From NCBI GenBank assembly GCA_036562685.1, contig DATCJR010000143.1, forward strand, positions 1 to 37,504: a stretch of DNA of 37,504 nucleotides, written 5' to 3'. Position numbers and translations under genes: made by a program. The DNA is from Clostridia bacterium (GTDB lineage Bacteria > Bacillota > Clostridia > Christensenellales > DUVY01). Positions 23,332 to 25,497 of the stretch are shown here, in pieces (within the stretch, counting starts at the first letter, position 1; every line of letters begins with the position of its first letter). Under the pieces are notes generated by a model, which worked only from the letters and a program-made list of their open reading frames with translations, was not told the DNA's origin and did not search any database.

Positions 23332-24081
23332 ATGAGAGTTCTTTTAACCATAGAATATAGAGGCACCAATTATCACGGCTGGCAGAAGCAAAAAAATCTT
23401 ATCACTATTTCTGAAACTATTGAAAATGCAATTTTTTCTATTACTGGCGAGCAAGTAACGCTACACGGAGCAGGGCGTACAGATGCAGGCGTGCATGCGT
23501 ATAATATGAAAGCGCATTTTGATATACAGCACGGCTTGCCGCCTGAAAAATATGCTTTTGCGCTCAATAATGCATTGCCGTCCGATATTAAGATTAGAAA
23601 AAGCGAACAAGTTAACGATAATTTTCATAGCAGATTTGATGCTGTTAATAAGACATATCTTTATAAGATATATGTAGCTCCATATCCAAGCGGAGTATAT
23701 TATGATACTCATTACTGCATTACCAAGAATTTGGATGTTGAAGCGATGAAAAAAGGCGCACAATATCTATTAGGCACACATGACTTTCGTGCCTTTATGT
23801 CTCAAGGCAGCAATCCATCTTCTACTGTTAGAACGATTTATGAAATAGATATTTTACAAAGAGAAATTGATGATGGATATGGAAAAGAAATAGTAGTAAA
23901 AATCAAAGGCAATTCATTTTTGTATAATATGGTCAGAATAATAGTAGCTCAGCTTATAAGAGTGGGAAGAAAAATTATACCACCTGAAGAAATTGAGGCT
24001 GCTTTAGAATCCAAAAATAGAAGGCGTGCAAGAGAAATTGCGCCGCCTCACGGATTGTATTTATACGAAATTAATTATTAG
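23332..24081 (+). CDS. truA: tRNA pseudouridine(38-40) synthase TruA
   Basis: 249 residues, family length. The catalytic aspartate lies in GAGRTDAGVHA near residue 52, and RFDAVNKTYLYKI and GNSFLYNMVRIIV are family signatures. It isomerises uridines 38-40 in tRNA anticodon arms. It begins 3 nt after ecfT with little room for its own binding site, so it belongs to the ecf operon. Its stop overlaps the stop of the convergent mntP by 3-4 bases, an unusually tight convergent end with no obvious terminator between. Confidence 0.96.
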   Translation: MRVLLTIEYRGTNYHGWQKQKNLITISETIENAIFSITGEQVTLHGAGRTDAGVHAYNMKAHFDIQHGLPPEKYAFALNNALPSDIKIRKSEQVNDNFHSRFDAVNKTYLYKIYVAPYPSGVYYDTHYCITKNLDVEAMKKGAQYLLGTHDFRAFMSQGSNPSSTVRTIYEIDILQREIDDGYGKEIVVKIKGNSFLYNMVRIIVAQLIRVGRKIIPPEEIEAALESKNRRRAREIAPPHGLYLYEINY

Positions 24082-24635
24082 AAAAAGATATGTTCAACTA
24101 AGATTTTTATACCAAGTCCTATTAAAATAATTCCGCCTATAATCAAAGCCTTTTTTTCAAACTTTTTGCCAGCTAAATTTCCTATTTTTGAACCTATAAT
24201 GCACATTATCATAGTGATTAATGCAATTATAAATGCAGACAGATAAATATTGACTTTTTCTATGGTTAAACTCAATCCGACTGCGAATGCATCTATGCTT
24301 GTGGCAACAGCTAAAATTAGAAGAACCTTATTAGAAGAATAATCAAGCGGGTGTTGGGGTTCGTCTTGAATAGAGTCTATTATCATTTTGCCGCCAATAA
24401 AAGCTAGCAGTCCAAAAGCTATCCAATGGGCAAATGCGTTTACAAAATCAATTAAAAATGTACCGAGCAGATATCCCAGCAGAGTCATTCCGCCTTGGAA
24501 AATCGCAAATAATGTAGCACATTTTAAACCAATTTTATTTTTGTTTGAACAATCGCATGCACCGCTTGCAGCAGAAGCAGCAGCGGCATCTATTGACAAA
24601 CTCAAACCAAGAAGCACAACTGTTAAATATTTCAT
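24078..24635 (-). CDS. MntP-type manganese efflux pump (or the related YtaF)
   Basis: 185 residues in about six membrane helices as two repeated halves. Conserved aspartates Asp16 (LSIDAAAAS) and Asp115 (SIDAFAVG) sit in the repeat signature helices. The cysteine pair in SGACDCSNK after the first helix is a lineage feature. MntP exports Mn2+; the sporulation protein YtaF has a similar architecture and cannot be fully excluded. The gene is read from the minus strand behind a leader carrying an intrinsic terminator. Upstream elements AAGG and AGG are weak ribosome binding sites. Confidence 0.85.
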   Translation of the reverse strand: MKYLTVVLLGLSLSIDAAAASAASGACDCSNKNKIGLKCATLFAIFQGGMTLLGYLLGTFLIDFVNAFAHWIAFGLLAFIGGKMIIDSIQDEPQHPLDYSSNKVLLILAVATSIDAFAVGLSLTIEKVNIYLSAFIIALITMIMCIIGSKIGNLAGKKFEKKALIIGGIILIGLGIKILVEHIFF

Positions 24636-24657
24636 TATATAATCCTATACCTTAATT

Positions 24658-24688
24658 AAAAAAGACTTTTGACAACATGTCAAAAGTC
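24658..24688 (-). terminator. Intrinsic terminator in the mntP leader (candidate attenuator)
   Basis: On the minus strand a perfect 11-bp stem (24688-24678 with 24674-24664, loop of 3) is followed by TTTTTT (24663-24658), ending 22 nt before the mntP ATG. Since the gene promoter is predicted upstream of it, mRNA must read through it. The segment 24715-24706 can pair with the 3' arm (24674-24665) over 10 bp with one G-U, a possible antiterminator. Confidence 0.7.
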
Positions 24689-24766
24689 AAAACCTTTAAG
24701 ACAACTGCCAAAAGTATCTTATTTTTTGATATAAACAAGTCTTATATGGTTATTTTTTTCTTCATA

Positions 24767-24796
24767 ATAATAAAGTATTATTTAATCTATTGTCAA
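24767..24796 (-). promoter_or_regulatory. Promoter of mntP
   Basis: On the minus strand TTGACA (24796-24791) and TATTAT (24772-24767) are separated by 18 nt. The transcript would start near 24760 and carry about 125 nt of leader before the ATG. Confidence 0.6.
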
Positions 24797-24885
24797 GCTT
24801 GCAATAGACTTATTTCTTTTAGTTAGGCATGCATAATTTATTTATATTAAAAAATGTTTTGAGATATGATAACTGTGATATTTAC

Positions 24886-24914
24886 TTGACATTAAGTTAA
24901 TTTTTTAATAAAAT
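24886..24914 (+). promoter_or_regulatory. Promoter of rplM-rpsI
   Basis: TTGACA at 24886-24891 and TAAAAT at 24909-24914 with a 17-nt spacer. Confidence 0.8.
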
Positions 24915-24920
24915 ATCTAA

Positions 24921-25059
24921 GCATCTATTAGGTGGATGTGTTTTTTTGTCATTAGCCCCGACAAAAGAATATCCACATGAATAAAATCATAATTAATAAG
25001 ACTGTTTTATAATGGCGTGAAACGTTATAAAAATCAGGACTTATCAAAGGGTAAAAACT
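24921..25059 (+). promoter_or_regulatory. Structured leader of rplM (possible L13-type autoregulatory leader)
   Basis: Two hairpins are clear. The first has outer arms GTGGAT (24932-24937) and ATCCAC (24971-24976) and inner arms TTTTGTC (24944-24950) and GACAAAA (24960-24966). The second has TTTTATAA (25005-25012) and TTATAAAA (25025-25032) capped by CGT/ACG. L13 leaders that regulate rplM-rpsI are known in low-GC Gram-positives; whether this one fits their consensus I cannot verify here. The binding site AAAGGG (25046-25051) lies after the second hairpin. Confidence 0.55.
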
Positions 25060-25497
25060 ATGAAGACTTTTATGGCAAAAACACAAGAAATAGAAAGAAA
25101 ATGGTATGTTGTTGATGCAGATGGTATTCCTTTGGGAAGATTAGCATCTCAAGTTGCTGCTATTTTGCGCGGAAAGAATAAACCCATTTTTACACCACAT
25201 ATTGATACAGGCGATCATGTAATTGTTATTAATTGTGATAAGGTTGTTTTAACAGGCAATAAGCTTGATCAAAAAGAAAAGAAAGCATATTCGGGTTATC
25301 CCGGCGGTCTAAAGACCACAGTATATCGCAAATATTTGGCTGAAAAATCTGATGAAGCAGTGTATGAAGCTGTTCAAGGCATGCTCCCTAAAAACAGTTT
25401 GGGTAGAGCTATGATTAAAAAGCTTCGCACATATAAAGGCGCAGAGCATAATCATCAGGCACAAAAACCCGAAGTTTTAGAATTATTTAAAAGATAG
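25060..25497 (+). CDS. rplM: 50S ribosomal protein L13
   Basis: A 145-residue L13 starting [20 protein letters not shown], the Firmicutes-type N-terminus, with [19 protein letters not shown] and the C-terminal [18 protein letters not shown]13 is an early 50S assembly protein. A later in-frame ATG at 25072 would drop four conserved residues. It is paired with rpsI 15 nt downstream and read from its own promoter and leader, apart from the superoperon. Confidence 0.98.

Follow-up and report, generated by a model that had tools for sequence, protein, structure and literature searches.

Conserved promoter and terminator in front of mntP in a Clostridia genus, with no recognisable manganese riboswitch in the leader

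The mntP locus and its conservation in the genus

The window (the whole stretch of DNA analysed, 37,504 nucleotides from a Clostridia bacterium of the order Christensenellales) carries mntP in antisense orientation between two plus-strand genes, truA, which ends at 24081, and rplM, which starts at 25060. The gene and the features in front of it are as follows.

24078..24635, minus strand: mntP (Mntp family, 185 aa; Pfam PF02659, E 3.2e-44)
24767..24796, minus strand: sigma-A-type promoter of mntP, TTGACA-N18-TATTAT, 11 of 12 consensus matches
24689..24760, minus strand: leader from the predicted transcription start to the terminator, no sequence conserved in the genus
24706..24715, minus strand: possible antiterminator arm ACTTTTGGCA, window species only, a 10-bp complement of the terminator 3' arm
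24664..24688, minus strand: intrinsic terminator stem-loop, 11 bp, loop of 3, kept in both congeneric genomes
24658..24663, minus strand: terminator U-tract, TTTTTT in the sequence

The terminator, GACTTTTGACATGTTGTCAAAAGTC followed by TTTTTT, forms 11 Watson-Crick pairs around a loop of 3, and its T6 run ends 22 nt upstream of the mntP ATG (24635). Dinucleotide shuffling of the intergenic region between mntP and rplM (424 bp) produced an equally perfect stem with at least 6 T in the next 8 bases in 1 of 2000 cases. The perfect 11-bp hairpin with TTTTTT reported in a preliminary description of this DNA was thus confirmed, as was its position downstream of the predicted promoter (TTGACA-18-TATTAT, 24796-24767, minus strand). 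Because rplM is divergent from mntP, the terminator can act only on the mntP transcript, and no other minus-strand gene can own it.

We compared the window's own genome (G000) with two congeneric genomes having mntP, G001 (contig CALAYY010000088.1) and G002 (DUVY01000118.1). MntP is 83% identical to the window protein in G001 and 71% in G002, and the neighbouring reading frames are arranged alike in all three genomes. Two contig scans for further mntP orthologues returned only the same two congeners and distant Neomarinimicrobiota. The promoter is kept in both congeners (GCTTGACA and TATTAT or TATGAT), and so is the terminator, directly before the mntP ATG. The inner half of the hairpin and its loop vary between species; all three retain a U-tract behind the stem. 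In G002 one pair of the stem is changed on both sides, from A-U to G-C, which with three sequences is not significant. With a G+C-containing stem conserved in three species (11 bp in the window) and a U-tract (T6), the element is an intrinsic terminator.

Other features were noted at these loci. mntP overlaps the stop codon of truA by 4 bp (window 23332-25497). No terminator was detected on the plus strand between truA and rplM; truA transcripts may therefore read antisense across mntP into rplM. The rplM-rpsI leader (window 24886-25020, plus strand), with GCATCTATTAGG...TTAGCCCCGACAAAA, shows good conservation among the three species and gave no Rfam match; it is perhaps a ribosomal-protein leader. 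G001 (L002) has an additional terminator-like hairpin, AACACTAAAGATTCTTTAGTGTT followed by TTTAAATT, which precedes the conserved one and lies 81 nt upstream of the mntP start codon.

A competing pairing in the window species

Upstream of the terminator, ACTTTTGGCA (24715-24706) can pair with the terminator 3' arm TGTCAAAAGT (24674-24665) over 10 bp, including one G-U. This pairing, already described from the sequence, is real: when the upstream leader of the window species was shuffled, a helix of at least 10 bp arose in only 4 of 1000 cases, and the duplex energy was equalled in 2 of 1000. The near-direct repeats pointed out earlier, each followed by GTTGTC, are both present as well (ACTTTTGGCA-GTTGTC and ACTTTTGACAT-GTTGTC). 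Folding of the full leader gave −24.5 kcal/mol with the antiterminator and −23.7 kcal/mol with the terminator, the antiterminator being slightly better by less than 1 kcal/mol. For an RNA ending in the U-tract, 98% was in the terminator form at equilibrium in the window species, and the prediction for each of the three species is a share of about 98% or higher.

The full pairing was found in G000 alone, so that a mutually exclusive antiterminator is not conserved across the three species. In G001 the counterpart is absent, the longest helix being 5 bp (963 of 1000 shuffles were as long), and G002 has only a 6-bp helix (280 of 1000). A different, weak upstream pairing exists in G002, matched by duplex energy in 25 of 1000 shuffles. 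Between promoter and terminator, pairwise identities of the leaders were 40, 32 and 29%, versus 38, 31 and 31% for shuffled leaders. A conserved RNA sensor is therefore not visible, since the leader is at shuffled-level identity and the antiterminator is not kept in the congeners. In contrast, a true manganese aptamer present in the same three genomes is 77–81% identical; selection on an aptamer would thus have been noticeable. The suggestion of the preliminary description that a different sensor may act through the antiterminator is thus possible but unsupported by the comparison. Leader-peptide attenuation was considered and set aside: by inspection, no conserved small ORF was seen in the three leaders.

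Search for a manganese aptamer

The mntP leader gave no match to RF00080 (yybP-ykoY) at the Rfam gathering threshold or at a relaxed one, nor to any other Rfam family. Taken by itself, the lack of an RF00080 match says little about absence in this order, because the model misses riboswitches throughout it: its cut-off of 45 bits was passed in 0 of 61 genomes. Many mntP leaders of the order nevertheless hold GGGAGTAG...TCAACA...GAGAC elements, some of them with sub-threshold RF00080 matches. Manganese riboswitches of the yybP-ykoY type falling below the Rfam cut-off were seen at L013, L014, L015, L028, L046, L052 and other loci, and an update of the family for Clostridia seems needed.

A covariance model, R1, was built from 17 aligned related elements, none of them from the window's genus. 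The outer helices of these 17 elements covary: at 9 of 10 predicted pairs, both partners are replaced in one or more sequences. R1 matched at E ≤ 1 in 38 of the 61 genomes, some of which supplied training sequences; the weakest matches may have arisen by chance. In each of the three genomes of the genus, an R1 element scoring 34–40 bits lies before a gene for a P-type ATPase, recognised from the protein sequence itself (DKTGTLT motif) and not by family search; in the window genome it is at G000:C15:1117-1222 (L075 1117-1222). At the mntP leaders, with filters off in the window, R1 scored no more than 2.8 bits for G000 and G001; the G002 leader reached 5.9 bits. The blocks GGGAGT, CAACA and AGAC, invariant in the 17 relatives, are absent from the window's mntP leader except for GAC, and the conserved loop sequences GGGAGUA and UCAACA do not occur there. 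Because R1 finds elements elsewhere in the same genomes, the absence of an aptamer at mntP is a genuine result rather than a shortcoming of the search. The earlier remark that the leader has no yybP-ykoY motif therefore holds, there being no RF00080 match and a best R1 score of 2.8 bits with filters off. A mntP-like gene at L055 (G060) is also without a manganese riboswitch; a hairpin, AAATGGTATGCAAAGCATATCATTT then TTTTTGGA, stands 36 nt before its ATG, the hairpin and T-run being located at about the transcription start of the gene.

The terminator itself has a likeness to those of the riboswitches. In L. lactis, the 3' strand of P1.1 is common to the manganese riboswitch and the terminator (PMC11087558). 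Such sharing is the rule in this order too, where the P1.1 3' strand of the aptamer (GAC...) usually serves as the 5' arm of the terminator: of 20 elements checked with a simple script, 15 have a GAC-initial 3' strand that takes part in a hairpin located downstream and ending in a T-rich tail, and three of the 20 are P-type ATPase elements without such a terminator. The mntP terminator starts with GACTTTTG in G000 and G001, and with AGGCTTTTG in G002. Among 222 terminator-like hairpins from 20 sampled contigs (193 kb) of the window genome, three begin with GAC, and only that of mntP with GACTTT; GACTTTT...AAAAGTCTTTT is unique in 1.8 Mb. As the terminators of G000 and G001 begin like the strand shared by aptamer and terminator in relatives (GAC...), the sequences suggest, with moderate strength, that the mntP terminator may be the remnant of a manganese riboswitch. 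In a tree of MntP, genes with and without the riboswitch are interspersed, and the branch of the genus is long and placed beside mostly non-riboswitch genes. The count of changes on this tree omits 24 ungrouped rows, and the "one change" obtained for the riboswitch group means little. The tree leaves a riboswitch origin of the terminator neither supported nor rejected.

Interpretation and comparison with known systems

We propose an attenuator that has no conserved sensor: an intrinsic terminator close to the promoter would stop transcription by default and so limit mntP output; we give this reading an even chance of being right. RNA polymerase would start at about 24760, at a good sigma-A promoter, and make about 97 nt. 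Most transcripts would stop at the 11-bp hairpin and U-tract, and the partial read-through would yield a low, roughly constant level of exporter, independent of Mn2+. In the window species the upstream alternative pairing may raise read-through, without being a conserved switch. In many relatives, the terminator at this position is the output half of a yybP-ykoY manganese riboswitch, the aptamer half of which is missing here. A brake on mntP is plausible because excess MntP is toxic in E. coli: without the mntP 5'-UTR the protein is overexpressed, and it is its quantity, not its function, that does the harm (PMC11647493).

Several points speak against this brake. A strong terminator relieved by nothing would waste most initiation, and the MntP tree leaves a riboswitch origin unproven. 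The antiterminator beats chance in the window species (4 of 1000 shuffles) and another, weak pairing exists in G002 (25 of 1000), so that fast-evolving regulation is conceivable. It may be that the aptamer was swapped for a fast-evolving or trans-acting antitermination control that responds to Mn2+ or some other signal in an undescribed way, while the terminator was kept; we find this rather improbable. A regulated attenuator relieved in trans is likewise unlikely, if a little less so; here a processive antitermination factor, a small RNA or an RNA-binding protein would recognise the hairpin or act on the polymerase. Such relief would not need a conserved leader, and terminator and promoter are indeed conserved where the leader is not. 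Attenuators relieved in trans typically have a default-off leader behind a strong promoter. However, no candidate factor was found, the leader has no conserved binding sequence, and the inner half and loop of the hairpin differ between species.

A switch in cis, in which ACTTTTGGCA would pair with the 3' arm upon a change in a metal, a metabolite or leader translation, through an undescribed sensor, would account for a pairing better than chance and for two folds of nearly equal energy. It is hard to reconcile with the absence of the pairing in G001, its 6 bp in G002, a leader at shuffled-level identity, and the lack of any Rfam family or conserved ORF in the three leaders, and we consider it doubtful. 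The palindrome could also be mainly a DNA element, in which TTGACA within the stem and TTTAAT behind it would make an internal promoter, the -35 of which overlaps an operator, TTTGACA-N3-TGTCAAA. TTGACA-N17-TTTAAT is found in G000 and G002 with 11 of 12 matches, although the crucial second base of the -10 is a T, and it is not present in G001. TTTGACANNNTGTCAAA has a single perfect copy in each of G000 and G002, at mntP in either case, and none is listed in G001; thus there is no regulon. The U-tract kept after the stem in all three species also argues against a DNA element, which we hold to be equally doubtful, and the operator reading was dropped, as neither G000 nor G002 has a further perfect copy of the palindrome. 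Finally, a degenerate or unusual yybP-ykoY riboswitch still sensing Mn2+ in the leader would fit a terminator starting like those of manganese riboswitches in relatives, and mntP is a typical target. Yet the invariant GGGAGT, CAACA and AGAC blocks are missing except for GAC, and R1 gives at most 2.8 bits, versus 34–40 bits at the P-type ATPase riboswitches of the same genus, which makes this reading highly improbable.

If the sensor-less attenuator is the right explanation, mntP would be a natural example of a riboswitch target gene with the terminator half and without the sensor, contrasting with the manganese aptamer at the P-type ATPase gene of the same genome.

Manganese exporters under MntR control include mntP in E. 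coli, and mneP and mneS in B. subtilis. The three genomes resemble these systems in having a manganese exporter gene and, each of them, a regulator of the DtxR/MntR family. They differ in that no conserved operator is seen upstream of the mntP promoter in the genus, comparison of the three genomes revealing no conserved block upstream of the -35 that could be an MntR box; no Nramp gene was found in them for a comparison of regulons. With attenuators based on alternative folds, mntP shares a promoter, a short leader and an intrinsic terminator, to which the window species adds a competing pairing; this pairing and the leader are not conserved, and no leader peptide or protein-binding site was recognised. 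Compared with the yybP-ykoY riboswitch (RF00080), the mntP leader lacks the aptamer, the conserved loops, a covarying P1.1 and a match to the model, but it has in common the mntP target, the position, the intrinsic terminator before the start codon, and the GAC with which that terminator starts.
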